From: Thysanoteuthis rhombus
Taxonomy: Eukaryota; Mollusca; Cephalopoda; Oegopsida; Thysanoteuthidae
Length of the DNA: 64,000 nt
Direction of reading: 5' to 3'
Assembly (NCBI GenBank): GCA_963457665.1
Contig: OY735237.1
Coordinates: 165,001-229,000 of the forward strand
The notes beneath the pieces were generated by a model. It had not been told where the DNA came from, made no database searches, and saw nothing but the letters and a program-made list of their open reading frames with translations. A program made the translations under genes and the position numbers. The first letter of the stretch is position 1; every line of letters begins with the position of its first letter. Below are positions 28,119-57,544 of the stretch, piece after piece.

Positions 28119-28860
28119 TTACTAATAATAAACGGAAAATATATTAATTTTTATGCCAAACAAGAGAATTTTACGCGTATGATCTTCCGTAGCAAATACC
28201 ACCAAATGTTTTTAATAGCCGAATCTTTTTAAAAAAATAGGATTGAGGAAGTGAATCAGACCATATCGTGTGTTTTCGACAACTTGCCTTTATTAAAAAA
28301 ACGAATTCACACATTAACAAAATAAAATCAACAAAGCAAGTCTTGATGCTATTTAAAAAAACAGAAAAGATGAATGAAGATGCTTCAAATCATCGAAAAA
28401 GGTCTTCAAAAAAGAAACAACCAATTCAAGCAATTTTCAGATGAAATAAAATATTTTTAAATATTGACAGATTAATCATTTGTAGTTCATGAGAATCACC
28501 ATCCTGTTTAATTAATTTACAAAATGACTCTGTTTTCCTTAATTTCCTTTGTATTTACAAACGAAGAGAAAGTCGCAACAATTTTGATGAATCTTATAAA
28601 ATTATCCGGAATCATCTATATTTATTTAAAACTATCTAGATTGATATCTAATTTCTAGATTGATCGGTTTATCCAAAAACAACGAATAAAGATGATGTTA
28701 TATCCATTTTCATCATAAAACAAAGGAATTAAGGATACAAAATTGATGAATAAAGATCAAATATCATGAGAAACAGATGATAAAAGATATATTAAAATTT
28801 CCATGAAAATCTTTTTAATGTAAAATTCGTAAAACAAAGAAATTAATCGAACGTTACTTA
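28119..28860. other. Spacer, probably start of intron 1 of locus A
   Basis: AT-rich. The first 20-30 bp next to the donor ('cgttcgattaatttctttg' on the minus strand) are conserved with locus B near 56855; beyond this nothing is recognised. Confidence 0.4.
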
Positions 28861-28865
28861 CTTAC

Positions 28866-29000
28866 TTCGTTTGGTTTGTTTTCCTTCACGCAATATCAAT
28901 ATTTAAAAAAAAAGAAAGAAGCTCTAACAATTAAAATAAACTTCAACTTCAAAGATTTAATTTTCTTTAAAAAACAAGTTTCCCTTTTGGGGGTTTTATA
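28866..29000 (-). promoter_or_regulatory. Putative promoter and 5' exon of zinc-finger locus A
   Basis: On the minus strand a TATA box (TATAAAA, 28994-29000, inside 'cattttctttataaaaccc') is followed about 130 bp later by the donor CGAA|GTAAGTAAG (intron from 28865). The same arrangement, with matching sequence before, between and after, occurs at 56869-56980 upstream of locus B. Transcription would start about 25-30 bp past the TATA box, giving an untranslated exon of about 100 nt that could splice to the acceptor at 17893, an 11-kb intron. Function is inferred from the conserved TATA-exon-donor order and shared strand. Confidence 0.5.
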
Positions 29001-29214
29001 AAGAAAATGTCTCACTAAAGATGTCGGCTAGTAATTTAAAGATGAAGATATTTTCATAAGAGCGACAATTAAGGGGGATAATTCATAGAAAACAACGAAT
29101 CTGCATTTTTCATTTCTTGAAAACTCATATAGAGATCTTAATGCTGCTACTGCTCATCATCACCATCACCATAACCATGAATCTTTTACGTGTATTTCCC
29201 ATGTTTATTACAGC

Positions 29215-29760
29215 GAATCTCTATGAAATCCACAAGAGAAGAAGATATCAAGCGGAGAAAAAGCTTTCGGCAAAGCAAACTCAACCTTCATAAGCAAGAC
29301 AATCCCAATAATCCTCAAAAGAAGAGTATATAACCAATGCACCCTCCCGATAGTCACCTATGGAGCTGAAACATGGAACCTAAGAGTTAAACCCGCAAAC
29401 TGAGAAGCATGCAACGTGCACATGAGAGAATCATGCTCAACCTCACATGGAGAGATCACAAGACAGCACAATATATCAGAAAGAAAACAGGAGTCAGAGA
29501 CATCATAGAATCCATTAGAAAACTCAAATGGCAATGGGCTGGCCATGTTGCAAGAATGAAAGACAACTGATGGACATCACGACTCACAACATGGATCCCC
29601 AGGGATCATATATGAAACTGATCCCGATAGAATACAAGATGGAAAAATGAACTTGACAAATTCAGAAAATACTGGCTCTGCAATGCTCATGATAGAGAAA
29701 TGTGGCATATTTTGGGGAAGGTCTATGTCCAACAACAGACATTGAAAGACTGATGATGAT
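29215..29760 (+). mobile_element. RTE-type LINE, 3' end
   Basis: The plus strand encodes the C-terminal end of an RTE-clade reverse transcriptase with a few shifts and stops: QCTLPIVTYGAETWNLRV, then QRAHERIMLNLTWRDH, then IRKLKWQWAGHVARM and GKVYVQQQTLKD. The element ends in TGATGATGAT, typical of RTE tails. It is 5'-truncated, as LINE copies usually are. Confidence 0.8.
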
Positions 29761-30029
29761 ATTTATTCTCATTTTAACTGGATAGATATGCAAAAAGTCC
29801 ATGAACAAATGTACACATGGTGGTAATGCATGAATATTCACAAGATTCTATAGGTGAATTTATTGAGGCCCAATATAACTAATCCATTAAGATTATTAAT
29901 CATTCTTGATATGAGATTCATACCTTATTGAGGTCACACATCAAACCACACATCCATAAATATCCTTATCATGTCAGGAACTTCTTTTTTTCTTTGTTCT
30001 TCAAGCCCCCATCCCCCATCGTTAATTTG

Positions 30030-30215
30030 CAATGTAAGTTTATGTTAAACTGGTCCCTCAGTTTGTGTCAGGTAATATCCATGTTTGTTTGGGGGAAATT
30101 CTGAATTTTTTAGTGATCAAAACCCAACAAAAGTTTAATTGATCACTCCTGACATGGCATACTGCCAAAAGAAGTTGGTCACATGACAGTTCTATAGAGT
30201 GAGTGACCTGACTTG
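30030..30215 (+). repeat. Dispersed repeat R1, copy
   Basis: Carries 'gtaagtttatgttaaactgg', 'ccctcagtttgtgtc', 'ggcatactgccaaaagaag' and 'gagtgagtgacctgac', in the same order as at 11420-11632. Confidence 0.55.
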
Positions 30216-31839
30216 TTTATCTTTCATTTCTTCTCTTCAATAATGCACCACATTTTAAAAACTGAAAATCTACCAGAGCAAAAAAGGCACTACTAATTCT
30301 CAATTCCTCTCTTTGACAAGTGTTGAAATAATTTCAGTAACTTGGAAGGACAGCATGTCTTTATGGGATCAATTTATCAATTAATTAATTAATTCTATCA
30401 TAATCAATTTTTATTTTCTCTCTATGCTCATCTGTATTTAAATAGATGTTGAAATGAAACTGTTAAAATTGCGTTCAATACAAAATATTAAATCAGAAAG
30501 TGATATATTTTATAGAATTAAAACTGATGAAAATTGATTTTAATTATAAATATATCGTCCAATTTTATTTACAAAGAGATAAACAAAGGTCCCAGTTTGT
30601 AATATAAGTATCTTAGTGAAATAAAAATTTACTATTCATTTAAATTGTTGATATTTGTGCAAATATACAGAGAGATATATACATGGATATAAATTACATT
30701 TTTAATGAGTGATTATAGATGCTACAAGATTCAACTCCATCATATCAGTTGAAATAATGAACAGATTTTGATCAGCCAAAATTTATAGAAAATATTCAAG
30801 TTTGGTTATTTAAGAATTAATAGATGAGTTATCAAATAACCATCTCAAGCACCTATTACGTGCATATTATAGTTTAATAACTGAATCTATGTATTTATTA
30901 CATGCAGGACCTGTCCTTCCATTTGGCAAAACTAGACAGTCACTTAGAATGCAAAGGTCAAAGGGCTGAGCTCAAAATATATACAACCGGATCATGAGCA
31001 TCAACTGCTACTTATCCAGGGAGTGTGTGCGTGCAAAAAAACATATTTTAAGTCTTGCCAAGGGTGTACGATACCCTTGTACGAATTTCAAGCCTATCCT
31101 CAGACACCTGACCTGATTACAAATGATATATGAGAATAAATGATACCATAATATCTATACAACTGTATAGATCTTAATCTATTCTATTGTCCCTCAATGT
31201 ATCTCTAAATATAAATATATAGACTCCAAACAGTATATTATTAGGAAGTCTTGAATAATATATTTATGATTCTCTTGTTATTGGGTACATTTCTTATTTA
31301 TTTCATTATAGTAATATGGAAAACAGGTGGAATTTTCCTGCAGAAAGCCCCAAAAAGGGATCATAGATTTGAACTATATACCTATTGAATCATATTTTAT
31401 TTGAAAATCATCACCATCATGAATTCTTTGGTCATTTTTAATTCAAATATCTGAGGGGATTTCATAAAACATTTCAATTACCCATATTTTTTTCAAAATG
31501 TATATTTTTTTAATTGAAATGTGGAAATCATAAAATCAGACTTTATCTAAAATCTTAATTTTTCTCGATAAGTGTGGGTAGCCTAGGACCAAAAGGAACC
31601 TCTACTTGAAAAAAAATTTCAAAATCATATATTTTGAGAAATTTTGAAAACTTGTAAAAATGTCCTCTTGTATAACACAGTTTATCCCTCAATATAACAC
31701 AGTTCACAATATAAGGCAGGTATTTGGTGGACCTTGACTTTTTTTTACTTATACTTCACCCACTCATCCAGAAAACCATGATTAAAAACAGAATTTCTTT
31801 TTGAACCTGTAAGGCCCAATATTTCAGACTGAGTGTGAT

Positions 31840-31990
31840 TTTACTAGATGGTAAGCCCATTTAATGACAGAGGTGACATAAATCCCACCCTACCACCACT
31901 GACAAATATATTTGACTCAGGCTGGCAAATTAACTGCTTGAAAATGAAATTAAACAAAAACTTTTTACTAAGCAATGGACAAATTCTTCT
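31840..31990. mobile_element. Fragment shared with the hAT element at 59391
   Basis: 'taagcccatttaatgacag', 'aggtgacataaatccca' and 'aaatatatttgactcagg' parallel 'aagcccatttgacgagagg', 'tgacaaatccttac' and 'aatatatttgacctatag' at 59630-59700. It is probably the remains of a related hAT copy without its ends. Confidence 0.45.
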
Positions 31991-33174
31991 TATTAACACT
32001 TTCATTTCAACTCATTTTACAGTTATACACTGAATTGTGCTTTTCGTTTCCTTTGGATTAGATCACTAATGAGAGGGGAAACCAGGTCAGGTAGTTAGAG
32101 AAATAACTTATTGTTACATCAGGGAAGTATAGGAAATGAAATACTGCAAGGAAAAATGCAGATCTTCATATATAACATTGTGTGTGTGACCTAGGAAAAA
32201 CAAACAGACATAAAAGAATGAAGGCATTTGTTTATTTGATAAGAATTGTTCTTAATTTTTACAGAGTAGATGATATTTACCAACATTTATTGGCAGCCCT
32301 TGAATATCACCTATATTGACTCTACAGTTATTGGGGCTCAGTTTAATGCAGTTGGCTTTCTTCTATTCCTACACCTGTATTATAAAAACATGATCGTGGG
32401 TCCCATTAGTAAATGAAGAAATTTTGGTTGTCTTTGAGTCATAAGATAACAGATAGACAGTTTTAGTGAATTGTAGTAAGATTATGTCAGTTGCTGGTTT
32501 GTACAGCACAGTACATAGAACCTTACTAACTGCTGGTAGTCGAACCATGTTTCATTCAAGGACAGTGGAAAACTCATGGTTATGAGACAAAATTTCATTT
32601 GGTATTTTGTAGGCAAGATGTATATTTAATGTGTATATAAAATTTCTCTTTAGCTAATCACAATATGTCCAGGTAGAATTATTTCCTCTTGCTTTGAAAT
32701 CAACAGCCTTTCTTCACCCAAATATGAATATTTAAATGTTTATATAAAATCCCTTTATTTAATCACGGTATTTGTCTGTATACAGTAATTTCCTCTTAAT
32801 TTAAAATCAAAGTTTTTTAAGCATACAGTCAATAAAGGGAATGATAATAAAATTCAGATTACAACTTTTCTACACAGACACCCTCATAGGCATGACACCT
32901 TAAAATATTGATTACTAGCTTAAATACTCATCTACTTGGGTGAAATATTTAAAGAGTAGAAAAGTGACTAAAGATTTCTGCCATGCAAAATATCTTCCTT
33001 CTACTCAAAGCTGTGGGTAGAAATTTTGGAATCCAGGAGGATTGGTTTGTTTAGCAACCCCCTCCAACAATTGGTGAGAGTATCTATTATATAAATTCAG
33101 TAGAGATGTCGGAAGTGAACTATTATTTATGAAGCATAGAGAGAACCCCTACATATAACATTTTAAATCCCTTG

Positions 33175-33865
33175 AAATGTGGGGAAGGGGATAGGTTCCC
33201 TTTCATTTTGACCCCTCAAGATAGAGAGACACTCCAATTACTACTGACCCCTTAAAGGGAGAAAAAAGGCTACCACTTTTAGCCCTTTGAAGAGAGAAAA
33301 ATTTTCCTAGACTTTTCACCATTTAAAGGTGGAGAGAAAATCTTCACTTTTTACCCATTTCGGAAGGTAAAAAAAGCCTCCTATCAAGAAAAGTCTACAT
33401 CCATTTTTGATCATTGAAGGGTGGGTTGGGGGTCCCATCATTTAAGACCCCTTTGAAATATATATTTATAAACATATTAAGTAAGAAGGTATAAATATTA
33501 GACAAAAAGTAAGATTCCAAGTTGGCTTTATAGTTACATTGTAAATAGAAACCCCCACCTCTAAAACCCTTGAAAAATCTCATATGCAAATAGCTGTAGC
33601 ATTATCCTTGCTGGGTAACATATTTCAGGAGGAACCAAAAAAATACTAAAACTTTCAGGCATGTAAGAAAAAGTTTCCCTATACTTTTGACTCCTCATTG
33701 AAGAAAAGAGCTTCCATTCGCCTTCAACCACGCAAAAGAGAAAATAATGGTTAATTTACTTCTGACTCATTAAAGGTGAAAAAATGTTTGCTTTCAGTTT
33801 TGATCGCTGGGAGAAGGAGGGGAAAGTCTCCATTCACTTTTTCCCCTTCCAGGGGGGATCTTCTA
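33175..33865 (+). repeat. Repeat R2 block, left of the RTE insertion
   Basis: A long R2 copy. It has a degenerate internal repeat of about 50 bp built on 'ttttgaccccttaaaggg' followed by purine-rich 'agaaaaaag', and the core 'tttatagttacattgtaaa' at 33526. The same motifs resume at 36890-37465 beyond the RTE LINE, so the LINE sits inside or between R2 units. Confidence 0.55.
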
Positions 33866-36545
33866 TTAATCATCATCATCATCATTAGTCTTTTATCATT
33901 CGTCATAGGACATAAACCTTTTCATGGATTTGCCATACCTCTCCATCTTAGGAGTCATAGCGCCAATATTTTTTGAGCCTGTCCTGTTCATCTGGCCATC
34001 TCATATTCTGCCGGCTTCAGTTCTGCATTTGATCTCTGGGGTTCCAAGTTGTGAGTCATGCTGTCTGCCATTCTTACAACATGACCTGCCCATTGCCATT
34101 TGAGTTTCCTGATGGTTTCTATGATGTCTTGGGCTCCTGTTTTTTCCCTCAATATACTGTGCTATCTTGTGGTCTCTTCATATGATGTTGAGTATGATTC
34201 TCCCATGTGCACGTTGTATAGTTTTTCAGTTTACAGGTGAGTCTCTTGGTTAGGTTCCATGTTTCAGCTCCATACATGACTATCAGGATGATGCATTGGT
34301 TGGAAACCTTCTTTTTAGGACTAATGGGATCTTCTTCTTCTTGAAGATTGGGCTTGCTCCACCAAAGGCTTGCCATCAGTCCCAGTGTAGGTTTCAGATC
34401 ATCTTGAGGCAGGCTGTTAAGAATTTGGGTGAGCTGGTATCACCCTGTCTCAGCCCTTTTTGGAGCTGAAAGGATTTTGAGTCCCTACGCAGCCTAATGA
34501 AGGAGTGACTGTGACAGTATATATGTTGCAATAGTCTAACATATTGGGGATCCACACATTGTAGAGTGATAGCCTCAATGACCATGGAAATTTCTATCTT
34601 ATATTCTGCTGCTTTCTTTTTTAGCCGATTTTTCAAATAAAGATGGTTGAGTAGATCTTTTTAATGCCAGTTTGTTCTCATGGTTGGTTTTCATGTAGCA
34701 TTTTCCTAATCGGCTTGGTGATAAGTCTGATGAAAAGTTTGCAGATGTAGTTGAGTAGACTTATTGGTCTTTAGATGTTGAGGTCTTTCAGGTTATTGTT
34801 TTTATGTAACAGCATTATGATTGCTGTGTCCCAATCTTCTGGCACTTGACTTTGTTTTTAGTATAAGTTGAATAGTATGGCTAGTTTTCTATTGATGACC
34901 TTACCAGCTTTTTTGAGTAGATCGATGGTGATGTTATCTGGTTCGAGGGCATTTTGTTTTTTTTTGTTTGTTTATTTGATGGCTTGTTTCACTTCCAATG
35001 CCACAATTTCTGGGATGTCCTCGAACTAAATGCTTGTGTCCTGCACACCCTGTTTGTTGTTGTGTGTTCCTTGTTTGGAAGAGTACGATTTTTGGTAGAA
35101 TTCTTTGGTACATTTGATCTGGCCTCAGTCTGTTGTTAGGTCTCCATTTGCTTTGTGTACACCAATCATTTGTTTCTGTCCAGTATTGAGAGTTTTGTTG
35201 ATAGCTTTGCAGCCCCAACTTGTTTTGTCTATTATTCCATTAATTGTAATCGTGCATGTCCTTTTGTCTCTTCATTGTTTCTTTTGGATGATTTTATTCA
35301 CTTTTGTTGTTTCAATTTTCTCTCTTGTTCTTGTTGGTTGCTTGAGATTTCCGTGTTTTTCTTTGAGATTCTTTGTTTCATCCAAGATTTTACTAATGGT
35401 ATTTGTGTTCTTTGGTTTGAACATAGTGGTGACTGCAATTAAAGAGGTTATTATTTTATTGTTTAATTCATTGATGTTGGTGTTCTTCTCTTATAGTTCG
35501 GTTAGTTCATACATGTTTTACATCTTACTTTTCTGCAGTCGCTACTTATGTTGACTTGATTTAGGACATGGATATCTTTGACTGGGTCACTTTTCATGGT
35601 TGGGTCTTTACCACTTTACCAAGTCTATTTTCTATTATTTTCTTTGTGGAGGAAAGTGTTCAGGATTTTGAAACCATTTGTAGTTGCAAGTTGACAGGGT
35701 CTTCACCTCTCTTGTTTGTTATTTTATGTCCAAATTTGCCAATGCAACGCTCGTTTCCTTGTCTTGCCTATGCATTGTAGTTCCCTATAATGACATTGAA
35801 GTATTATCTGGTATCTTGGAGAAGAGATTTCAAGTCATCATAGAAGTTGTTTTCTTCCTCTCTAGTTACCTTCAAAGTGAGAGCGTGGACTTTGATGATA
35901 TTCAGTTTGTACCTTTTTGAGAATTGTACAGTAACACTGGCTATGCAGTCAGAGACAGTTTTGGAGCCAACTACATTGTCTTTGAGTTCTTTACTGATTG
36001 GAAAACTTACCCTAATTTGATTTGCTTTCTCTTTCCCATAGTTGTATAAAAGATGTTTGCTTTTCAGTGTGATAAGTTTTTCTCCGAGTCTTCTCATTTC
36101 ACTAATACCAATGTCACATTTGAGGTTCTTGATTTCATTTTTAAGTTCAGTTAGGTGCATGTCTGTTGAGAGTGTTGTAGGTGCTAATGTATGACGTTGT
36201 TTTCTTGGTGATGGCTTTGGGGTTGTGTTTGGGTCGTTGCTGCAAGTGATGTGACTGGGCCTTTTGGAAACAAGGACCCAGTGGGAACGCTTGTTTTCTC
36301 GGCATAGTGTTTAGGTAATCACTCTTGGAGCACATCAACCCCACCCAGAGCAAGTAATGTGGCTGGTGTAATTTTGATTTTGCAAACCATGGGAAGTGTT
36401 GGACCATACCTTGCCACACTGGCCCATGATGTGTTACCAGGGAGTCTAGTGAAATGATCAGAGTTAATGTCAATAAGAGAAGCCTGGGAGCTCCATCAGC
36501 TTTTAGCACCCATTGTATTTGTGTAGATATGGATGTATGCAGCAC
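33866..36545 (-). mobile_element. RTE-type LINE, nearly full length, decayed
   Basis: About 2.7 kb, minus strand. From 36160 inward comes an AP-type endonuclease: ISEMRRLGEKLITL, YKLNIIKVHALTL and EENNFYDDLKSLL (35804-36160), then a fragment like GNYNA and IGKFGHKITNKRGEDPVN at about 35700-35790. The reverse transcriptase follows at 34394-34636 (VDPQYVRLLQHIY, FQLQKGLRQGDTSSPKF, the conserved QG-hydrophobic-RQGD core) and a C-terminal part at 34149-34376 (VMYGAETWNLTKRLTCKL). It ends in (ATG)n at 33869-33886. The conserved Asp-Asp catalytic box is not intact in any single frame and several stops and shifts break the ORF. RTE elements copy and insert themselves by target-primed reverse transcription; this one is dead. 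Confidence 0.88.
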
Positions 36546-41828: not shown

Positions 41829-41924
41829 CTGGGATCAAGTTGGGACCCTCCCATGGTGATCCCATAAAACCTCTAAAGGAGGAGACCTATCGATACACTA
41901 CAGACCAATCAGTACAATATCATG

Positions 41925-42030
41925 CATATGGTTTCTCTCCAGTATGTGTTCTTGTATCACATCAAATGAAAAACCACAAACTTAACTAGGATATGGTTTC
42001 TCTCCTCTGTGTGTGCGCATATGGATATTC
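41925..42030 (-). pseudogene. Isolated C2H2 finger relic
   Basis: The minus strand reads MRTHRGEKPYPS, a stop, VCGFSFDVIQ and then, after a shift, a second linker-like 'acatactggagagaaaccat'. This is about one and a half fingers with the same linker codons as loci A-C, with the Cys lost and a stop present. It marks a fourth, nearly erased zinc-finger locus or a dispersed piece of one. Confidence 0.7.
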
Positions 42031-42616
42031 ATTTTTGGTACAACATGTCATAAGAATGTCTTCTGAGCAATGTACATAGATAAATGTGAAGCCATTCTTA
42101 TGAAAAGGAATAATGTGGGTCACAAGTAATAAAATAAAATATTTTGTGTTTGTTTAAACATAAACTTTGAAGGACTTATACGGGCTGTATCAAGAGCTGT
42201 GCCTTGTATCCATAACAGGGAGAGGGTTATTTCATTAGTCAAGATGCCAGTCTGTGACTTATTCACTTAGTTGTTGTTGTTGGCCTCCCCGTGCTCTGTT
42301 CATTCTTCCCACCAGTCATCTCTACACTTCTCATTTCTCTAGATACCTACGTTGATGGCAAGCCTCCATCCATTGCAAACACCTTCCAATGAGCAAGGAA
42401 TACAAGTTTGGTAATCAAACTCAGGCCAGGATGTTCCGAAAGAGGCATACTTCTTTCCAGAGATATCTAAAATCCTTTTCAGCGTAGCAGAAAATTTCTA
42501 CATTCCAAGTAGGGGTAGAGGGTTCATGCCTTGATACCATATAGCTGTGCACCGAGTACATATGCCCAATTCAATTAGCAAAACTATTTAAAAAAATTTT
42601 TAAAATGTGTATTGAC
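42031..42616. other. Spacer, nothing recognised
   Basis: No supported feature. A weak B-box-like 'gagtttgattacc' on the minus strand near 42415 is not enough for a SINE call. Confidence 0.4.
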
Positions 42617-45802: not shown

Positions 45803-45812
45803 TTTATTTATT
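45803..45812 (-). terminator. Candidate poly(A) signals for zinc-finger locus B
   Basis: Two overlapping AATAAA hexamers on the minus strand, about 300 bp past the intact frame of locus B, in the place expected for a 3' UTR. Confidence 0.4.
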
Positions 45813-45989: not shown

Positions 45990-46116
45990 GGTGAAAATAC
46001 TTAATACACTTAAGAAGAAGAAAGATTCCCCTCAGTGTTTTTCATGTAACTTTCAAGCTTCTCCAGGGTGTGTTTGAATGAGTCTAATCAAATTTGAACT
46101 CTGTGAAAATGCTGAT
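45990..46116 (-). pseudogene. Broken last finger of locus B
   Basis: After the stop, another frame reads [20 protein letters not shown] and then decays. A 1-bp insertion in the codon for the first Cys (TCCTGTCAA type to TCCTCATCAA) shifts the frame and produces SSSSM-stop. Confidence 0.75.
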
Positions 46117-47910
46117 CTACATACTTGATGAGGATTTCTCTTCTGTGTGTGTTCGCATGTGGCTCTTCAAATTTGAATTATTTAAAAATGTAGATCCACA
46201 TACTTCACAAGAGAAAGGCTTTACTCTAGAGTGTGTTTGCATGTGTTTATTCAAATGTGACTTATTTAAAAATGCTGATCCACACACTTGACAGAAGAGT
46301 TTCTCTCCAGTGTGCGTTCGCATGTGGCTCTTCAAATTCGAATTATTTGAAAATGCTGATTTACACACTTTACAAGAGAATGGTTTTTCTCCAGTGTGGG
46401 TTCGCATGTGGCTCTTCAGATTTGAATTACTTGAAAATGCTGATCCACACACTTCACAAGAGAACGGTTTCTCTCCAGTGTGTGTTCGCATGTGATTCTT
46501 CAAAGTTGAATTTTTCGAAAATGTGGATCCACATACTTTACAACAGAAAGGCTTCTCACCAGTGTGTGTTTGAATGTGTCTCTTCAAATTTGAATTACTT
46601 GAAAATGCTGATCCACACACTTGACATGAAAAAGATTTCTCGCCAGTGTGTGTTAGCATGTGTCGCTGCAGAACTGAACTCTGTGAAAATGTGGATCCAC
46701 ATACTTGACAAGAGAAGGGTTTTTCTCCAGTGTGTGTACGCATGTGGCTCTTCAAATTTGAATTACTGGAAAATGCTGATCCACACACTTGACAGAATAT
46801 TTTTTCTCCAGTGTGGGTTCGCATGTGGCTTTTCAAAGTTGAATTACTTGAAAATGCTGATCCACACACTCGACAAGAAAATGGTTTCTCTCCAGTGTGT
46901 GTTCGCATGTGGCTCTTCAGATTTGAATTACTTGAAAATGCTGATCCACACACTTCACAAGAGAACGGTTTCTCACCAGTGTGTGTTCGCATGTGGCTCT
47001 TTAAATTTGAACTATTCAAAAATGCGGAACCACATAGTTCACAAGAGAAAGGCTTTTCGCCAGTGTGTGTTCGCATGTGTCTCTTCAAATGCGAATTATT
47101 TGAGAATGCTGATCCACATACTTGGCAGCAGAAAGGTTTCTCTCCAGTGTGGGTTCGCATATGGCTCTTCAAATTTGAATTATTTGAAAATGCTGATCCA
47201 CACACTTGACAAAACAGTTTTTCTCCAGTATGTTTTCGCATGTGTTCCGTCAAATTTGAACTCTGTGAAAATGCTGATCCACACACTTGACAAGAAAATG
47301 GTTTCTCTCCAGTGTGTGTTCGCATATGGCTTTTCAGATTTGAATTATTTGAAAATTCTGATCCACACACTTGACATGAAAAAGATTTCTTTCCAGTGTG
47401 TTTTCGCATGTGTTCCATCAAATTTGAACTCTGTGAAAATATGGATCCACATAGTTTACGAGAGAAAGGTTTTTCTCTAGTGTGTGTTTGCATGTGTTTC
47501 TTCAAATGTGAATTATTTGAAAATAATGATCCACACACTTGACAAGAGAAAGGTTTTTCTCCGGTGTGCATTTGCATGTGATTCTTCAAAGTTGAATTAT
47601 TTGAAAATTCTGATCCACACACTTGACAAGAAGATTTCTCTCCAGTGTGTGTTCGAATGTGTTTCTGCAAATTTGAACTCTGTGTAAATGCTAATCCACA
47701 AACTTGACAAGAAAAAGGTTTTTCCCCAGTGTGTGTTCGCATGTGTCTATTCAAAGCTGAATTTTTTGAAAATGCTGATCCACATATTTGACAGGAGAAA
47801 GGTTTCTCTCCAGTATGTGTCCGCTGGTGAGTCTTCAGATTTGAATTCATTGAAAACGCCAACCCACACACTTCACAAGAGTGAAGTTTCTTTCCAGTGT
47901 GTGTTTGCAT
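46117..47910 (-). CDS. C2H2 zinc-finger protein, locus B, 21 fingers
   Basis: Predicted 597-residue nuclear DNA-binding protein made almost only of C2H2 fingers, signature [20 protein letters not shown]. 21 fingers can be counted; finger 6 has lost its first Cys (FSRKLC). Fingers 4, 9, 14 and 20 each lack one residue between linker and first Cys (KSSC, KLFC, KIFC, KLFC), a shared deletion that marks copied blocks about five fingers long. Fingers 6-7 and 8-9 are a clear two-finger duplication. 13 fingers have Asn at helix position +3 and eight carry the identical helix end [10 protein letters not shown], so the array is unusually homogeneous. The start Met lies in a finger linker (MQTHTGKK); upstream sequence holds decayed fingers, so the true N-terminus is uncertain. 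No other domain is seen. Inferred splice acceptor 48344 and promoter near 56.9 kb. Confidence 0.85.
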
Positions 47911-48361
47911 GTTTTTCTTTCAATCGAGAATTTCCAAACAGTTTGATCCATACATTTTGCTCAAAAATGTTTCCCTTCAATGTGCAGCTGCAAGTATATC
48001 TTCAAATGTGAATTCAATGTAGAAGCTGATCTATAAACCATGTGAAAATAAGGCTCGTCTCATTTACATGTGATTTTTAAAATCTTTAATGTGAAAGTGC
48101 TGTTCTACACAGTTGACATGAGTTGGTTTTCTTTCCAGTGTCTTATGGTATTTTTATTCTTGAAATTGAAGCAAGTGAAAATGATCTGCACACTTCACAA
48201 GAGTAAAATTTCTATCCAGTATTTGAGTATGCAAATAGAACTGCAACTACCAAGAATACGTCTGAATACTTGTTTCTTCATTCTCACCTTCCGAATCTAA
48301 CCCATGATTACACTTTATGGACATCAATTTTTCATTGCAATATCTGCAAGTAAAGAAAAGG
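47911..48361 (-). pseudogene. Decayed 5' part of finger exon B with 3' splice site
   Basis: The minus strand has the acceptor CCTTTTCTTTACTTGCAG (intron end 48344). The exon then starts ATATTGCAATG. About 400 bp with finger traces follow in mixed frames: KFYSCEVC (about 48205), KKTNSCQLCRTALSH (about 48110) and others, interrupted by stops. The pattern is the same as in loci A and C. Confidence 0.6.
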
Positions 48362-48889
48362 TCTTATTAAAGAAAATGCTAGACTTATGCATTATTTACA
48401 GCAATAATATTGTAACAACCCAGTTTCAGTTCCTAGGAAGTTAACATCTCTTACATTTCATGTTCAGTTAATAAATAAAAAGGATTTTCTACTTTTATTG
48501 AAACAAAGAATAATTGAATTGAATATAATTTACAGACTTGCATTTTTACTTTTCTATCAGCCTTCCTGATCAGGAACAAGACATTTCATCACTCATCAAA
48601 AAATAATGGGAACAATTATCAACATTTGAATATTCAATCAACAAATGTAATCGCATCATTTATAATCTTGAAAACAAAGAATGAAAGGTACAAATAACTT
48701 TTCATCTAGTCACATTTCAAAAAGTCAAACAAATTCATGAAAAATGAATTCATTGAGTCAAATTCGAATAAGATTTTGATTTTTTAATGAGAATATAAGT
48801 AAAGAGAAATTTGATATTTGCTGGAAAAAACAAGTAGAACATTGGAAAACTAGAAAAGTACAAAATATAAGTCTGTTGAAAAAAAGAAT
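48362..48889. other. Probable intron of locus B, nothing recognised
   Basis: AT-rich spacer. Confidence 0.4.
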
Positions 48890-49395
48890 ATTATGTTTTT
48901 TTCACAATGAAACTATCTTCAGTGTATGGGAAGATGTATGAGGCAAGTGTTGAGAGACAATTCTTTTAAAAAAATGAGTAGAAAACAATGTGTATTGTTA
49001 CAAACAACCAATTAGAAGAAAGAAAAAAAATCTCGTTTTGCAGCAGATACCTTTGCTTCAAATTCTTAGAGTGGACGAGGAGAATTCTTTTGTTTGAACA
49101 ATAAAAACGAAAGTAAAATACCCTTTTTTCTTCTTTGCAGCTTTAACTCATTACATAACAGTAAATAGAGAGATGTAAAATAAAATTTATCAATTTGAGG
49201 GGGTAAAAGATCCAAGAGATATATGTATTGAGGAGAGTTTTTTTTTTTTAAAAGCAAAGTAGGAAACAGCTGTTGCACTGTTACATGTGATCAATTGGAC
49301 GAAAGGAAAAAAAAATCCCATTCCATAGCAGATAGCTTTGCTTCAAGTTTTGGAGTAGAAGGGGGAAGAATTCTTTTGTTTGAATATTAAACGAG
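48890..49395. repeat. Tandem duplication, period about 287 bp
   Basis: 'agcagatacctttgcttcaa' and 'gaattcttttgtttgaac' near 49041-49100 recur as 'agcagatagctttgcttcaa' and 'gaattcttttgtttgaat' near 49327-49386. Preceding sequence ('caattagaagaaag' versus 'caattggacgaaagg') also aligns. Confidence 0.75.
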
Positions 49396-49481
49396 TCTGA
49401 CACTCAAACTGAGCAAGTTCACCATTTTGCTATGCCTGAGATTTTTTCATAAATTGAATAAATAATTATGAGACATATATA

Positions 49482-50890
49482 GTGTGAGCTGATTAGTAAC
49501 CATGGAGGAACTTTTTATTAGAAACATGAAGCAAAGTTTTTATGAATCTTCAAAAGAAGCACTTTCCAAAAAAATATGTCACCTTCCAGGATGGTGTCCA
49601 AGATGGCAGCCAAATATTTATAATGCCCATTACTTGTTCATTATTCACTCGAAACAATTTGTTCTTTTGTAGTATCAAGTGAGCTTAATTACTTCAATTT
49701 TCTACCACAGTCTAACCACTGAAAAGGTATAACATTAAAGATAGCATTCAAATTGGCTTAATGTGAAAAAAGCTAACCCCCCCCCCCGAAGATCACAATA
49801 GAAGGTTTCCCAGCTGTTCTTGTAGCATCAGGAATACTTAATGACATACTAAAAGACTGCCACAGCCTCCCTACTAGGAAGGTATAATTTTCAAGATGGC
49901 ATACTTCATGATGTATAGATGTTTTTATATACTACACAATATATTGAAAAATTCTTTGACCCTCCCTTAAGTTTATTCACTCTTTTATTTGCAGCCCTAA
50001 TCTCCATAAAATTGCATTGAAATCCATCAAAAACTTCTGGAGATATTATGTAGACAGACATGATTGAATACAGAAGTGTATGACGAAAAAAAAAGAAAAA
50101 AACTATCGATCAAACACAAATTCCTAGATTTGCATCCAAATTTAATCATTCTTTCTTTACAACATGGCTTACCTTTCCACAATATTTCATTGACATTCAT
50201 GGCGAACTTTTGGAGGTATACAGAAAATATATGAAAAAACTGCAAAAATACATGTCAAAAACAAACTCCTGGATCTGCCTCCAAAATTTACATCCTCTTT
50301 GATATGAGCCTTATCCTTCCATGAAATTCTTTCATAATGAATTGAGAACTTCTAGAGATATCGCTTTGAGAAACAGAAAAGAATACAGAAATTTATAGAA
50401 AAATTTCAAGAATCTCTCTCAATTGAAAATAAATGTCTATATCCACCACAAAATTTAATCACGTCTTCCTTACAATATAGTCTACTCCTCCATGAAATTC
50501 CATGGAAATTCATTGAGAGCTTTAGGGGATATAGTGTATACAGATGGGAGCAAATACAAAAGAAAGAGTATTAAAAACAGAAAAACATCTCTCAATTATT
50601 GAAAGTTATACCTTTCCAGTGAACAGATTGTATTAGAATTTTGATGCTATTGAGCACATTTGCAACAAAAAATCATTGAAAAAACTTGTATAAAGTGAAT
50701 AATGAACAGGTAATAGGCATTATAAGTATTTAGCAGCTATTTTGAAAATTATACACAGTGGGTCATTGAAAAAATTGGCTGGATATCTTTTTTCAAGTAC
50801 TTATATTGAGGATTCATAAAAACCTCACTTCATACTTCTGATAAAAAAGTTTCCCATGAGATCCCAGAGGTGCTACATTTCAGCCCACAC
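49482..50890. mobile_element. Long-inverted-repeat (foldback) element, 1.4 kb
   Basis: The left arm 49482-49758 matches the complement of the right arm 50603-50890 over about 280 bp. Matching pairs from the ends inward are 'gtgtgagctga' / 'gtgtgggctga', 'gtttttatgaatc' / 'gtttttatgaatc', 'tataatgcccattac' / 'tataatgcctattac', 'tgttcattattcact' in both, and 'ggtataac' in both. Outside both ends lies TA, so TA-GTGTG...CACAC-TA looks like a TA target duplication, as in Tc1/mariner-like or Kolobok-like groups. The core has tandem repeats and no transposase frame, so it is non-autonomous. It lies in the inferred intron of locus B. Confidence 0.82.
49960..50600. repeat. Tandem repeats inside the foldback element
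   Basis: About four diverged units of roughly 165-185 bp. Each contains a version of 'ccatgaaattccatggaaat', 'tcattgagaac', 'ttctggagatat' and 'agacagacatg...gaatacaga', separated by A-rich stretches. Confidence 0.75.
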
Positions 50891-52146
50891 TAAATGAAGA
50901 GAAATACATAAAATTGTTTGAAATACAAATTTAATTCATTTTCAACACCAATTTACAAATTGGAGGTAAATGAAAGTGAAATGCCCTTTTTTGTGACTTT
51001 AGTTCTTCACAAGGGTAAACAAATAACTTCAAATTGGAATTTGTAACTATGCAAGGGTAAAAAAAAATCTAGTATAGCTTAGTTGATGGAAGTATCATAA
51101 AGTCTAAAATGTACTTTGTTGGGAAATTTGTGCCGTCAACAAAGACAATCTTTGTTGCCACTCATATATTTCTGTCCTTTTTTCTTACCTCCTATTATTT
51201 CATATTTACTGGCCTTATTTGAAATCAAACTCAGTTGTGGCTCTCTTTCATTTAGATAGTACTGGTGGTATTGGCACCACTTGCCAGAAGTTGAAATTTT
51301 TCAGATTTTATTGGTTGTTTGAAGACATTGAGCATGTACAGAAGGGATTAGCATATATTGCTATGTTAAGTCTATGCAGTCAGAATTTTCAGACTGAGAG
51401 TTGCAGTTAAACGTATCTATATGTATCATTGTCAGTTCAACCAGTCAGAAAACTAGTGAACAGTATGATCTCAACTTGTTCTGTCCTCCTATGTTAACAT
51501 TGGGAAGCTTTTGTTTTCCCACACACTGATGATGACGACAAGAACTTGACTAGACAAGGAAGTTACCTAATGCCTTTTAGAGCCAGTTAACAATCAGAAT
51601 TTAGTCACCTGGTGAGGAGCATCTGGCTATTGACTCAAGTATCACGATAGTTGGTAATTATCAACAATACATCCATTCCTGTAAAGGAGATAGTCTAGTG
51701 TATAAATGAAATGCATCAAAATGAAATTCAACCAATTAATCTAAGGGCAATATAGGTTTTTCCATGACGGTGATAAATGAGTTCATGTCCAATTAAGACA
51801 ATAATTGGTCAATGAGACACACTGCTCAAATTGTCACTTACTTTCCCAGGTATATATTTTTTGATCGATTTGCAAGCATATATTTCTAAATTCCAAGGAT
51901 TGAATTCCTCTTCATTTTAAAAATGTTTGTATTGAGTTGTTTTTCCATGATTCTGCATTGGCATTAAGCTATATTTCAACCATTGAAGGAAAATAACTCA
52001 TATCTATGGCGATTTTATCAATTCAAAAAAGTTTTTTTTGCAAGATAATCAAGAATTATCTGATTGAGGGAAGCCTAGAAGAATAAGGTTCTAAATAAAT
52101 ATTTTACATTCAAACATTTATTTCTATTTGAAAATATGACAAGTGA
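50891..52146. other. Probable intron of locus B, nothing recognised
   Basis: Spacer. An open frame at 51219-51410 has no domain. Confidence 0.4.
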
Positions 52147-52230
52147 GAGGGTCCCCAAACTTTTTAGACAATCAACCCCTTCATGGAATCCTTGATCCCT
52201 ACTCCACCCTCAGGCATGTACAATGCATAA
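52147..52230 (+). mobile_element. Possible hAT element tip
   Basis: 'agggtccccaaactttttag' followed by 'accccttcatggaatcc' resembles the left end of hAT elements. No matching right end was found. Confidence 0.35.
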
Positions 52231-52959
52231 ATGAATGATTGGATCAATTGTAGTACACAGTGAACTGTATGTTCATTTACATTTTTCTTGTTTTAGGTAG
52301 TGAAGCCTTAGAGATGGCAATTCTTTGCTGTTGTATCATCTCTGCCCACAACAATAATATTCCTGAGGGAACATTTTCTTTTCTCAAATAAACTTATAAT
52401 CATTAGAAAATGGTCTCACTTTTTGCATCACCTTTGATAAACAAACAAAAACTAATAACCAATCCACATTACGCTTGGGCAATAATACCTCAAATAGGCC
52501 ATGAAAATATCAGAACAACCAAAAGTTGCTTCATAGAATTGAATGGAAAATTCACAATGTTGAAGCACAGAGGCCAAATTTTTCTCCACAACAGCCATTT
52601 CTAATTTCTCCTTTTAATGCCTTAAAAAAAATGAATAGGTCAGTTTTTCTTGAAAGAGTGAATCCTTTCAGAGGAAGACTTTCATTTTTCGGAGGTTCCA
52701 TGGCATCATTACTAAAAGAATTTCATTAAACAAGTACACAGGCATTGCTCCATTAATAGAGGAAGGAATGAATCTAAAAAAAAGATAAATCAAAACGACT
52801 TAAAACTGTCAGCAGTTTTCAAAACAGAATTGCCTAATTCCAGATGAATTTTTGATGATGATGATAAAAAGAAAGAATAGTTTTAAAAATTGATAATAGA
52901 AGACAAAAAATTAAAAATTGATGATAGAAGATAAAATTAAAAATCAATGCTGATTCTAA
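52231..52959. other. Probable intron of locus B, nothing recognised
   Basis: AT-rich with short direct repeats near 52880-52950 ('aattgatgatagaagacaaa' type). No gene. Confidence 0.4.
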
Positions 52960-53335
52960 AACCAGTGCTAAAACATTCAAAATTCCAATGCCTGAGCACT
53001 GAAAAAATGCCGAATTCCAATGCCTGGGCGCAGTTAGATGTTGAATTCAACTGTCTGAACACTGGAGATGCTATATTCATGAAGCCTATGCATTGGAAAA
53101 TTCTGTAATTTGAAGCCCAAGCACTAAATTCCAATACCTTGGCATTGAAGATTGCTAAATTTTCTTGCACAGAAAGATGTTCAATTCAAATGTACAGGCA
53201 CTAGAAGATTCCAATGCCTCAGTGCTGAAGAATGCTAAATTACAATGTCTGGGTATAAAAAGATGCTAAATTCTGGCATCTGGACACTAAAAGATGCTTA
53301 ATTCCAATGTCTATGTAATAGAAGAGCTAAGGGCC
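52960..53335. repeat. Degenerate minisatellite, unit about 30-33 bp, block 1
   Basis: About ten to twelve diverged units following 'attccaatgcctgggcactg' plus 'aaagatgctaa'. Clear units start near 52980, 53015, 53070, 53130, 53205, 53235, 53270 and 53300. Units of the same family appear at 55570-56620. Confidence 0.75.
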
Positions 53336-54189
53336 ACCAAAGGAGCACCAAAGCAGCCCAGCAATTGGAAAAAAAAAATCATGATTTATAATTACAATAA
53401 GCATCTTTAGACAACTATAAGCAAGGTTATACAAGATATACATGATTTCTCCAAGTATTAAAAGGAATTTTGGTGCTCCATCCTTCCCATCACTTCACTC
53501 TCAGTCTGTTATGGAACCAACAACCTTTCTTGCCTTGTCTTTTGATCATGAAACTATCGGTGGAAAAGGTCACTTGGTAATCAATTGATATCATTACTTA
53601 TCCCTGTGAAATAAAAACGACTTCTGTTGCCAATATCTGTAAGGTTCTAAACTTTTAAACCTTTGAAGGTCTGATCCAGGTGGGGGTAGGGATCTGTGTG
53701 GCCAAACCCAATCAGATGTCAATGTACGTATCCAATATACATATCCAATATACTAAGAATTGTTGGCATTGTTACATGCATATAAAATTTATACATTGCT
53801 TTTTTTTCAATATGAGTCCTCCTTGGTCTATTATCACTTTTGTTATGAAACTGACAACCTCCCTTATTATCTTGTATTATGTTTGAATCTTCAATTTCGA
53901 ATTTGGTGAATTTCTGAATTTCACAATGCACTGTTATACCTATTCAATGCTAAATTTGTTTCATCATAGTAAAGGGAATTGATCAAAGTGCAAGATTTGG
54001 TTGATGGGTATGAATTTAACAATACATATGCAAAAGCATAGAAGTGCACAATATATAATTAAAGAACTGTTTTTCATAGAAAAGAGAGATAATGATTTTT
54101 TTCAGTGATCGAAGTGGGGCACAGAGCAAAAAAAAGCGGAACCACTGGTTGAGACAAATTGGCTTGAAGATTTAGACATTCTGGGTTTA
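53336..54189. other. Probable intron of locus B, nothing recognised
   Basis: AT-rich. No supported feature. Confidence 0.4.
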
Positions 54190-54690
54190 GGCAACCATAA
54201 AAAAAACAGGACCCGCGAATTGACATATAAAACGCATGCTCAGCTGGAGGGAACTGCATGGACGGCTAAAGAGAACATGACTGAAGGACAACAGGAGTTG
54301 ATATTACTAGAGGAAAATAAGAAAAGATGGAGAGATGTCCTCAAACGCAGAATAGCCATTACTGTCTCTCTCTTGCCTCAGGAAATTTGTCTTCTAGGGG
54401 TTCTTTTTGGTGTCCCTATGAGTCAGACAATAGGAACTGGGAAATTGAAAATTAGAAATGCTGTTCATCCCTCCCCAGGGGATTTTGCAAAACTGATAAA
54501 GGCAAACTGCAGCCTTAAATGGCCGTTGGCTTGATGTTGATTTGATGGTATGCACTTTGAATATCCTTTATGCTGGAAAACACAATATTCAGCAATCTCA
54601 CCAATCATGGAAATGGATATGCATTCAGCAAAGTGAAATGGTTTATAATTAGTGAATCGTCCATAACTCACCTTTTCTTCTGATTTTCAG
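54190..54690 (+). pseudogene. hAT transposase fragment, DUF4371-type
   Basis: The open frame at 54220-54534 reads KTHAQLEGTAWTAKENM, then LEENKKRWRDVLKRRIAI and LLPQEICLLG. This resembles the region of TTF/DUF4371-type hAT-related proteins in which a conserved R/H-W-x-x-V-L-x-R-hydrophobic helix is followed by a Q-N-L-A-hydrophobic-R-G motif. After a stop, a second frame near 54645 reads FSKVKWFIISESS, like the I-K-x-A-K-Y-F-S-I-I-x-D start of the catalytic core. It is truncated at both ends with no terminal repeats seen, so a dead fragment. Confidence 0.5.
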
Positions 54691-55442
54691 AGGCTATCAT
54701 CAGCACCTGAAAGATTCACTAGGTTCAATAATCCTTTACTTTGGCATTTATAGATATTTCGGAATTTATAAATTTCTCATGTGAATACAGTCTTGAATTC
54801 ACTGCCACTAGTTAACGGTCCGATGTCAAGTTATTAAAGAGGGGAAGGGGCTTAACTCTGATCAATGTTGCCAGATATGTTTGATTTCGGACATCATGTC
54901 TATTTTTCCTCTGCAAGGCTGATTATTTTTTTTTTAAATTGGAAATCTAAATTGTCTCATTCAAGGCTTCACAAACATTTTGATTTTTCAAAAATTTTGT
55001 CTTAATTTTCGAAACATTGTCTTAAATCTGGAAAAAAGAAATCTATCTTGTTTTTTCAAAGAATGTATTGAAAATCACCCGTCTACTCTGTTATATTTAA
55101 CAAGTTTTGTACATTGTATCGTTGCTATAAAAAATGTTCTAATTATTGTGTTAATATCTGAACAATATGTTGTATGATTGTTTTTTTAACAAAAGTTGGT
55201 AAGCAATTTTAGAAAAATGAAGTGAAAAAAATCTATCCATTTTTCATTATTTATTTTCATTTTTGTGTATAATTATACTTTTTAAACCAAAGATAACGAG
55301 AATTAAAAATAAAATGGCAACTTATAGCCATTCTGTCAGATTTAGTTCGATTTTGAGAAAACTAATCTGACAACCCTAACTCTAATTGACAAAGACATAA
55401 ATCACTGTCAATGCACCGAAATATTCTTAATTGTACCAATCA

Positions 55443-55444
<2 letters not shown>
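54691..55444. other. Probable intron of locus B, nothing recognised
   Basis: AT-rich spacer. Confidence 0.4.

Positions 55445-55477
<33 letters not shown>
55445..55477. repeat. (AT)n microsatellite
   Basis: About 16 perfect AT units. Confidence 0.95.
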
Positions 55478-55481
<4 letters not shown>

Positions 55482-55569
55482 TTCTTATTTCAACATTAAA
55501 ATTTAAACGTCTAGACACAAAACGAGGCTAAATATCAAACAGCTCATTATAAAACATATTTTAGTCGTC

Positions 55570-56402
55570 GAATATTAAAATTCAAAATATTCATTTGCCC
55601 GAGTATTCTATTTTCAAATGAACTCTGAAAACGTCTGTAAAAAATGAAGCTGACCAGGTGTTGGATATCTCTTCATTTAAACTCCCAGCCACTGAAAAAT
55701 GAATAATTATATTAAATTCCAATACTTCTTCACATAAATATGACTTTTCAACATTGAAAGCTTCCAGAGGCCACTATACGTATCCGGTCAGTTTAACATA
55801 AGTAAATTTCTCATGTACTATCAATGAAAGAGAGAATCAATTATCGGGTCGTTTTTAAATATATTTTAGTAGTGGAATATTGAAATTTAAAATACTCACC
55901 TGAGCATCAGAAGATTTAAAATTTCTACATCTATTTGAAAAAACAAACTTTAAAACACAACTAGGAACTGAAGAGTACTTCATTCCAATGCCCTTGCACA
56001 GTAAGGTCCTAAATTTTACCATTCATATACATGAATATGTTAGATTTCGACATTTGAACAGGGAAATGTTATATTTCAACATCAGATGGCCCGGACATGC
56101 AGAATGATACAAAGCAACGTCTGGGCACTAAAAGGTACTAAATTTACACGTCTGGGCACTAAAAGTAACTAAATATCAATGTCTGCTCATTTCTAAAATA
56201 GATCCGTGGTCAAATATTGAAATTGAAAATATTCATTCGTCCGGGCGCTGATGATAAATTCTTACATCAAACAAACTGTGAAAAAACAAGTCAAAATCAG
56301 GTTGTCCAGGAACTGGAATATTCTTTATTCCAATGTCTGGGTACAGAAAGCTACATAATTGAAAAGTCAGGAGGTTGATAGATGCTAAATTTTAACATTC
56401 AG

Positions 56403-56444
<42 letters not shown>

Positions 56445-56620
56445 GTTGACTTCCGATATTGGACCACGAAAATACGTTTAATGTCAACATCAAAAGATGT
56501 GATGATGATGATTATAGGCTGCTCAGGGACTGGAAATACTGAATTCAAACATCTGAGCACGTTTGAAATTAAAATCTATAAGTGCCCGGACGTCGGAATT
56601 TTGAATATTTTTAGGCTCAG
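55570..56620. repeat. Degenerate minisatellite, block 2
   Basis: Scattered and clustered units of the family seen at 52960: 'attccaatgcccttgcacag' (55982), 'cgtctgggcactaaaaggt' (56120), 'cgtctgggcactaaaagta' (56149), 'ttccaatgtctgggtacag' (56328) and others, with larger units containing 'aaaatattcattcg'. It lies 0.3-1.3 kb inside the inferred intron 1 of locus B. Confidence 0.6.
56402..56444. repeat. (CA)n(AT)n microsatellite
   Basis: About 14 CA units followed by seven AT units. Confidence 0.95.
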
Positions 56621-56869
56621 ACCGGCTCTTGTGAGACCCGCATAACAACGGGGCAGGTCAGGGCTGCTTATGGCACCCAAAATTGATTGTGAAGTTTTGA
56701 AGGTTGGTGATTGGTAATAGATAAATTATTATTAAAGATATTGATAAAGAATCAAAATATGGTGAGAAAAAGAATTATCGATAATTGATGTTAATAGATA
56801 AAATATGATCAAAAATTTCTCCTGCTAATTAATAATTCAAAACAAAGAAATTAATCGAACAATACTTAC

Positions 56870-56985
56870 TTATTTTGACTGTTGGTTTATCTTCATTCAA
56901 TATCGACTTCAGAAAAAAAGATGGAAACTCTATCATAAAGAAAAACAAATTTCACTTTCTGGGGTTTTATAAGAAAATGTCGTCT
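56870..56985 (-). promoter_or_regulatory. Putative promoter and 5' exon of zinc-finger locus B
   Basis: On the minus strand TATAAAA (56965-56971, in 'cattttcttataaaacccc') precedes the donor AATAA|GTAAGTATT (intron from 56869) by about 95 bp. 'gacattttctt', 'ataaaacccc', 'tagag', 'tattg..tgaag' and, past the donor, 'gttcgattaatttctttg' match locus A at 28850-29010. Splicing to 48344 would remove 8.5 kb. The short exon has no long frame and would be 5' UTR. Confidence 0.5.
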
Positions 56986-57544
56986 GGGCTTGCAAATTCA
57001 AAGAGGAAAACAGGTTGGTCGACAATTTAGCGATTTTAATGCAAAATGTAGTATTTTTCTATATATTCTTTTTTTCATGTGTGAACATTCTAATTACCAA
57101 CACACAACTATTCTGATAGGCAATGGATTTTTGTGCCGTAGGGACAGATCAGACTCATCACCGTTTTGACATCCGCACTCAATAAATATCTTGAGTTGAA
57201 TTTTTTTTTTAAAGTTTAACTTTGTTAATCACAGAAAAATTGTAGAAATAAATTCAAGAAAAAAAAACTTCCGTTTTATTCAACTGTATTCTTGGGATCT
57301 TCTTGTCAATTAATTTAACAATCAAATATCGACTGCCATTCACTCCGAGTAACACACGCATAAATTTTTGTCTCAAGCACGTAAGTAGATTCAAATCCAT
57401 TTTATTATTTTTCCCTTCTACGAATTTTTGTCCATTTTTCTTCAATATTTTCTACGACATTCAAAATACTAAAAATGTACCTAGTAAAGTATTTCTTCGA
57501 ACGTAAGGCTGGGTAAATAATAAAAAAAATCTGATGAGACTAAT
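56986..57544. other. Upstream flank of locus B, nothing recognised
   Basis: AT-rich. No clear elements. Confidence 0.4.

Follow-up and report, generated by a model that had tools for sequence, protein, structure and literature searches.

A large lineage-specific duplication of C2H2 zinc-finger genes, with expression in the nervous system, has been described in squid and octopus by Holzinger et al. 2025 (PMC12513265). In that account tandem duplicates may share regulatory elements, and the placing of paralogs in different co-expression modules led to the inference of a regulatory switch. Its main text uses none of the terms promoter, exon, intron or UTR, whereas here a conserved 5′ module of such genes, in what is most likely a squid, is described at the level of sequence. 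The squid arrays reported below resemble the coleoid expansion in having long tandem fingers, TGEKP-type linkers and a very high, clustered copy number.

A second comparison is offered by the zebrafish 'sharp peak' zinc-finger genes, in which many finger genes are described as having a shared TATA-bearing promoter architecture (PMC10547256), and coordinated expression of zebrafish zinc-finger genes has also been reported (PMC5690287). These are fish genes of a different finger family that are switched on at zygotic genome activation, and the likeness is one of description. What the zebrafish promoters share is their TATA architecture, whereas the squid module is best conserved at the donor of its first exon.

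Other multigene families combine non-coding 5′ exons with a single coding exon, or have a promoter element in common. In the olfactory receptors, and in the clustered protocadherins, which have a conserved sequence element, a repeated promoter/first-exon unit stands before each long coding exon. The squid family is like these in layout only, as both the proteins and the elements are different.

The host was considered through its haemocyanin, for which 52 matches to the molluscan haemocyanin domain were found. For one haemocyanin unit the scores against two units of PDB 6r83 were 709 and 665 bits, and no unit in the two further chains listed scored above 466 bits. We take 6r83 to be Todarodes haemocyanin and the second high-scoring unit to be a squid-type duplicate. 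The entry 6R83 is named in a paper on squid haemocyanin. The haemocyanin points to what is most likely a decapodiform squid, and so to a coleoid cephalopod.

Zinc-finger loci of the window

The window, by which we mean the whole stretch of 64,000 nucleotides that was analysed, contains three finger arrays, all of which are long tandem C2H2 arrays with matches to Pfam zf-C2H2 and zf-H2C2_2; Pfam gave no match on four non-finger frames of the window, and Rfam gave none on the window. We refer to the two loci on the minus strand as A and B and to the third, on the plus strand, as C. Their features are as follows.

Locus A
28731..29096, minus strand: module A (upstream block, TATA-like site, exon 1, donor and proximal intron), from a blastn pile-up of 11 units, with up to 10/10 others; profile match at 29011-28824, E 4e-45 (54-copy profile)
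28990..29001, minus strand: TATA-like site TTATAAAACCCC, matching the family majority consensus
28862..28970, minus strand: predicted non-coding exon 1, the 3′ end taken from the donor and the 5′ end placed about 30 nt after the TATA-like site
28856..28861, minus strand: donor GTAAGT at the family position (columns 194-199 of alignment A1)
28831..28852, minus strand: proximal intron block GTTCGATTAATTTCTTTGTTTT, identical in B, within the donor-centred conservation peak
17893..28861, minus strand: predicted intron 1 of 10,969 nt, its interior without similarity common to several members
16059..17892, minus strand: finger exon with conserved acceptor and leader (leader profile match 18029-17747, E 5e-24), then the finger frame (first in-frame ATG 17501, stop 16059; 17 finger matches, one past the stop)

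Locus B
56720..56962, minus strand: module B, delimited by its conservation among gene units; profile match 56980-56822, E 4.9e-24, with weaker upstream similarity continuing to about 57025
56961..56972, minus strand: TATA-like site TTATAAAACCCC
56870..56940, minus strand: predicted non-coding exon 1, its start being approximate by inference
56864..56869, minus strand: donor GTAAGT
56839..56860, minus strand: proximal intron block, the same 22 nt as in A
48344..56869, minus strand: predicted intron 1 of 8,526 nt
46117..48343, minus strand: finger exon with conserved acceptor, non-coding leader with decayed fingers (leader profile match 48481-48241, E 6e-55) and finger frame (first ATG 47910, stop 46117; 20 finger matches)

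Locus C
61395..61597, plus strand: tandemly duplicated acceptor/leader of a third finger locus (leader profile E 3.6e-5 and 1.3e-4)
62573..63478, plus strand: finger frame with 10 finger matches, head-to-head with B

An earlier note on this DNA had proposed that two minus-strand segments match each other, each being the only such segment upstream of its finger exon, and both statements are borne out. Local alignment of 28961-28692 with 56970-56707 scored 85; when 754 random pairs of 1-kb pieces of the window were compared, one non-finger pair reached the same value and the next non-finger pair scored 77, and in a gapped alignment of 29012-28801 with 56984-56811 there were 136 identities in 161 ungapped columns. 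Of the shared motifs, TTATAAAACCCC is exact in both loci, although as a 12-mer with up to two mismatches it occurs in the window at chance level (9 matches against 8.5 expected). The longer GTTCGATTAATTTCTTTG, exact at 28835-28852 and 56843-56860, has 3 matches in the window with up to three mismatches, a number reached in 0/100 shuffles. No third copy of the module was found in the window, the next nhmmer matches having E 0.37 when the profile was built from two copies and E 0.4 when it was built from 54; for locus C, no plus-strand match was better than E 0.4 with the latter, and no module for it was found in the window.

The acceptors that had been proposed at the finger exons also hold, the exon starts at 17892 and 48343 fitting the conserved acceptor of the family. 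The donors needed one correction: GTAAGT is present in both loci and the junction given for B stands, while the donor of A lies at 28861 and not at 28865. Locus A has two overlapping GTAAG donors, and B and the rest of the family share the one at 28861 (exon end 28862), so that the predicted junctions are 28862^17892 for A and 56870^48343 for B.

The module across the genome

The module is some 300-400 bp long. It takes in an upstream block and a TATA-like site, then the first exon, which is non-coding, and the GTRAGT donor together with roughly 100 nt of the intron. At least 54 copies occur in the 2.73 Gb genome, the known ones on ten contigs. Contig C12 holds 29 of the 54, and 28 lie within the zinc-finger cluster at C12:1.17-1.68 Mb. 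A 33-nt core pattern of the module had 21 matches genome-wide and its reversed control 0.

This genome-wide search, which the earlier note had suggested, places the module before same-strand C2H2 finger arrays in 19 of the 20 copies that were fully examined, namely those of the 54 with enough downstream DNA read (2/2 in the window, 9/10 in a tile of C12 and 8/8 in other places). The exception, at C12 position 1176740 on the plus strand, has no finger array ahead of the next module. In the C12 tile, a count of 9 was reached in 1/20,000 random placements and in 2/1024 strand flips, with a 9-kb limit that was picked after the map was seen. Eight further loci (L001-L008), outside the 20 and too short to tell, comprise 1.5 kb each side of the module match; no finger array was found within that span, and one of them (L004) has a single finger-like match on the opposite strand.

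The finger exon acceptor is likewise conserved across the family, a 32-mer of it having 39 genome matches against 0 for the control. A known same-strand module lies within 12 kb upstream of 13 of these, and 26 have no known module in that range. Because of these 26 and of locus C, the module either marks a subset of the genes or is too diverged elsewhere to be recognised. A first pattern that required GTAAGT 60-90 nt after TTATAAAACCCC was a poor choice: it gave 1 and 5 matches against 21 and 26 for the control, and its gap limit misses B by one base.

The genome matches also rule out a simple tandem pair, as A and B are not each other's nearest relatives. The best match of A is at C12:1305208 (79%), with B absent among the 40 matches listed for A, and the best match of B besides itself is at C30:14432970 (75%), A being fifth among the listed matches of B, counting B's own copy. 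By sequence comparison, A and B belong to a family found on at least ten contigs, within which they are only distantly related and form no private pair.

Conservation of the module and its possible causes

When 11 gene units were compared in a blastn pile-up, only two islands, the module and the finger exon, were common to all comparisons, and no stretch of the intron between them was common to more than 4/10 other units. Since there are two islands only, together with a conserved acceptor, we read these as genes of two exons whose first intron measures some 2-11 kb.

Exon 1 carries 0-4 ATGs per copy, and its length modulo 3 falls into the three residues 21, 13 and 10 times among 44 copies, as suits a first exon that is non-coding. 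Upstream of the finger frame there are eleven ATGs in A and twelve in B, a point against the gene model proposed below. No leader reading frame shared among units was found, and as the ATG frames differ from unit to unit, we reject the idea that the leader is coding or holds a conserved uORF.

Within the module, mean pairwise identity is highest around the donor, at 0.77-0.78, and drops to 0.44-0.48 at the edges; the best-kept part covers the final 60 nt of exon 1 and 36 nt beginning with the donor. The GTRAGT donor is kept in 41/44 copies and allows either A or G at +3, as genuine 5′ splice sites do. Of the parts named above, the TATA site is the least stable, with an exact TATAAA in 15/44 copies and a majority consensus of TTATAAAA, and similarity runs upstream of it for some 85-110 nt more, including ATTATCTCCCTT, before fading. 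The donor-centred peak, the low number of exact TATAAA copies and the further similarity upstream favour a reading in which the block is kept mainly as RNA-level context of the 5′ splice site, for regulated first-intron splicing, with the true promoter further upstream and the TATA match incidental. This we consider unlikely: the family consensus still reads TTATAAAACCCC, the similarity above the TATA site is gone within about 110 nt, as for a core promoter, and RNAalifold on the 44 copies gave no consensus structure (0 pairs), which also rules out a donor hairpin with GAAATAAG pairing with CTTAATTTC across the donor.

Less probable still is a reading in which the copies have no function and have simply been passed on by duplication, with no selection on the module. 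Many fingers are indeed decayed, relic arrays and short upstream reading frames are common too, and one module on C12 is without an array of its own, but the module retains a mean pairwise identity of 0.68-0.78 where intron and flanks are mostly unalignable, the donor is preserved as described, and finger frames of 480 and 597 aa are still open. That the module derives from a transposable element, such as an LTR or SINE of which a fragment lies upstream of finger exons by chance, is very improbable, for although the module is multicopy, AT-rich and spread over ten contigs, with the downstream array fully examined in only 20/54 copies, it directly precedes same-strand finger arrays in nearly all of these within a two-island homology, its core has few matches for so large a genome, and the most alike copies (a trio on C47 and a pair on C42) match past the module edges, along almost the whole 419-451 bp that were compared, so that neither the fixed ends nor the host-independent scatter of a dispersed element is seen.

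A proposed gene model

We therefore return to the reading of the two segments as 5′ ends of members of a large C2H2 family, which are very probably two-exon genes with a common promoter-proximal module. In the proposed model this module would carry a TATA-like site and, after it, a first exon that is non-coding and ends in GTRAGT. That exon would be spliced over the long intron to the conserved acceptor, which would open one long exon; in it a non-coding leader, consisting in part of decayed fingers, would precede the finger array. The genes would have been duplicated within and between clusters, after which intron and flanks diverged beyond alignment or were replaced, with module and finger exon being kept. 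Copy number, position, strand, the homology of the two islands and the conservation of donor and acceptor are seen directly in the sequence; from them we infer that transcription would start at the module, that the junctions would be used and that the module may exert common control.

The suggestion that the segments are promoters and 5′ UTR exons of a duplicated family is thus supported by the placement of the module before arrays and by the specificity of its core, with the amendments that the family extends well beyond A and B and that an exact TATAAA is a minority feature. That non-coding DNA was copied along with the finger exons is supported by the position of the two islands and not by agreement of their trees: distances in the module and in the finger-exon leader were uncorrelated (Mantel r 0.003, 2373/5000 permutations as high) in 16 of 18 units, C39b and u1337 being left out as their leader was not captured in the alignment. 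Such uncorrelated distances fit a star-like radiation, but also a reshuffling of the two ends.

With many copies starting with the same module, the genes may share one switch. Tentatively, it is possible that the donor-centred block is a control element under purifying selection that joins dozens of zinc-finger genes in one co-regulated battery, through first-intron splicing or through a factor that binds immediately after the point where transcription starts, with differences between paralogs coming from distal DNA. Cephalopod C2H2 genes are hugely expanded, and a module that can be recognised in sequence offers a way to annotate their true gene starts, to sort finger genes into module-bearing and module-less subfamilies, and to put to a direct test whether genes with the same promoter-proximal unit are also expressed alike. 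These paralogs have also kept a stretch of non-coding DNA although the greater part of their intron can no longer be aligned.

Viral contigs gave 0 matches for a 22-mer and 0 for array B. A genome search with array B returned 7845 first-look candidates, of which 73 were scored, and the matches listed are crowded on C12, C17, C33 and C47.

Shared putative start region of the two window genes

The earlier note had claimed that two minus-strand zinc-finger genes of the window, A and B, share a start module upstream of their finger exons, and the likeness of the two segments is real. The module is a block of about 300-400 bp holding an upstream block, a TATA-like site, exon 1, a GTRAGT donor and about 100 nt of intron. 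Features of the window are as follows.

29012-28801 (minus): aligned segment of module A
56984-56811 (minus): aligned segment of module B
28862^17892 (minus): predicted junction of A
56870^48343 (minus): predicted junction of B
from 17501 (minus): finger frame A, 480 aa
from 47910 (minus): finger frame B, 597 aa
61395-61597 (plus): acceptor region of a third finger locus, C
62573-63478 (plus): fingers of locus C
61386-61482 and 61483-61579: 97-nt tandem duplication that copies the locus C acceptor
29261-29760 and 33878-34371: two 500-nt repeats in inverted orientation (74% alike), separated by 4.1 kb; the pair starts some 260 nt upstream of the TATA-like site in A
31838-31988 and 59617-59762: segments similar over 155 nt (69%), one upstream of each module and in matching orientation; no other full copy was seen in the window
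41857-42095 (minus): finger-array relic between the two genes, downstream of B and upstream of the A module

In a gapped alignment of these two module segments 136 of 161 ungapped columns are identical, and a local alignment pairs 28961-28692 with 56970-56707. Both carry an exact copy of the 18-mer GTTCGATTAATTTCTTTG, for which three matches at up to three mismatches were reached in none of 100 shuffles; the TATA-like TTATAAAACCCC by itself is not rare at two mismatches. The donor region of A has two overlapping GTAAG sites, of which the one at 28861 is common to B and the family, so that the junction formerly proposed for A (28866^17892) is moved to 28862^17892, while that of B stands as predicted.

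Profile searches of the window found no module copy besides A and B, and none for locus C, the leader of which is of the family type. Both copies in its tandem duplication match the leader profile, giving two candidate acceptors.

Module copies and finger arrays across the genome

The window corresponds to G000:C42:165001-229000 in a 2.73 Gb assembly (514 contigs). A search of this assembly returned at least 40 matches with module A as the query and 21 with module B, two of these being pieces of one copy; a 33-nt core pattern had 21 genome matches and its reversed control none. An nhmmer E of 1e-10 was passed by 54 fetched copies, copy counts being lower bounds, with 29 on contig C12 (28 within 1.17-1.68 Mb) and the remainder over nine other contigs.

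This genome search had been set as a test of the module's link to fingers, and of 20 fully examined copies, including those of the window, 19 have a same-strand finger array downstream. Within C12:1150001-1350000, tiled for a module and finger map, nine of ten modules lead into such an array, whereas what follows the tenth is another module; nine was reached in 1 of 20,000 draws with random placement and strands, and in 2 of 1024 strand flips at fixed places, the 9-kb limit in the placement tests having been chosen with the map already seen. Downstream DNA was also fetched for eight copies outside the tile (C10, C40, two on C39, C47, C19, C14 and C30), and all eight have same-strand arrays with 3 to 17 finger matches each. 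The 34 other known copies lie outside this count; for ten of them an acceptor or finger match lies downstream on the same strand, as positives only, drawn from lists made for other ends (the finger-array list was entered with 11 places near modules).

With leader and module profiles built partly from the same C12 genes, nine of the ten tile arrays with at least five fingers have both, and the tenth (1162203) has neither. Three extra leader matches in the tile (near 1226, 1230 and 1287 kb) belong to arrays of 1-3 fingers that have no module of their own. On C17, about 49-61 Mb, many finger-array matches occur and none of the 54 known module copies; these arrays possibly use another start module, or one diverged past detection.

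At the start of the finger exon lies a conserved acceptor, with consensus TTCTTTATTCACAG before the boundary and ATATTGCAATGGAAAATTGATGG after it, and a 32-nt acceptor pattern has 39 genome matches (control 0). No known module lies within 12 kb upstream in 26 of the 39; as controls over the same distance, five of the 39 have a same-strand module downstream and two have an opposite-strand one.

Conservation and proposed role of the module

When 11 units (A, B and nine C12 genes) were piled up with blastn, two islands recurred in every comparison: the finger exon, and the module from about -100 to +290 relative to its 5' edge. Some introns and flanks have stretches common to four of the ten other units, and one 3' flank a stretch common to seven. 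The predicted intron 1 measures 3,054 to 10,969 nt in ten of the units; in the eleventh, C12:1245806, the acceptor is about 1.8 kb from the module. Module and leader distances show no correlation across 16 units (Mantel r 0.003).

In an alignment of 44 copies, from which two partial hits were excluded, the donor is GTRAGT in 41 (33 GTAAGT, 8 GTGAGT) and an exact TATAAA is present in 15. With both hits included (46 rows), mean pairwise identity rises from 0.44 and 0.58 upstream of the TATA region to 0.68 over that region and the initial part of exon 1, reaches 0.77 over the exon's final 60 nt and 0.78 for 36 nt starting at the donor, and falls to 0.64 up to +100 and then 0.48; we judge the outer values to be about what an aligner yields for unrelated AT-rich DNA. 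No RNA structure was found in the module copies.

Exon 1 looks non-coding, since its copies hold 0-4 ATGs and its lengths are spread over all three residues modulo 3. In exon 2, the leader contains numerous short ATG frames that differ between units, together with decayed fingers (47920-48343 and family). These decayed fingers seem to occupy similar positions in several of the units, and the decay at the 5' end may therefore predate the spread of the family.

Most likely each gene has the module as its promoter-proximal part: transcription would start after the TATA-like site, and exon 1, itself untranslated, would be joined through the donor to the finger exon. Duplication of the genes would have carried the module along, and it would then have been retained while intron DNA turned over. 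The most alike copies (a trio on C47 and a pair on C42, the window's contig) match across almost the whole 419-451 bp compared, whereas more distant pairs match chiefly in the core, which suggests selection on the module and not that it was copied by itself. Gene conversion may have played a part.

A common promoter architecture is already known for zebrafish finger genes, from PMC10547256 and PMC5690287. No description of such a module was found in the cephalopod literature searched, including passages of PMC12513265 and PMC13218726, a search with subscription journals mostly outside it and no claim of absence from the literature at large.

Haemocyanin units in the same assembly

The molluscan haemocyanin domain has 52 matches in the genome. 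For one functional unit, the scores against two units of PDB 6r83, an entry that appears in a paper on squid haemocyanin, are 709 and 665 bits, and no unit of the other two chains printed gives it more than 466 bits. On these grounds the genome is most likely that of a decapodiform squid. At G000:C25:56607734-56625492, on another contig, nine units with even spacing of about 2.2 kb and equal scores each have a 464-aa frame, and represent either recent tandem expansion within a haemocyanin gene or an artefact of the assembly.
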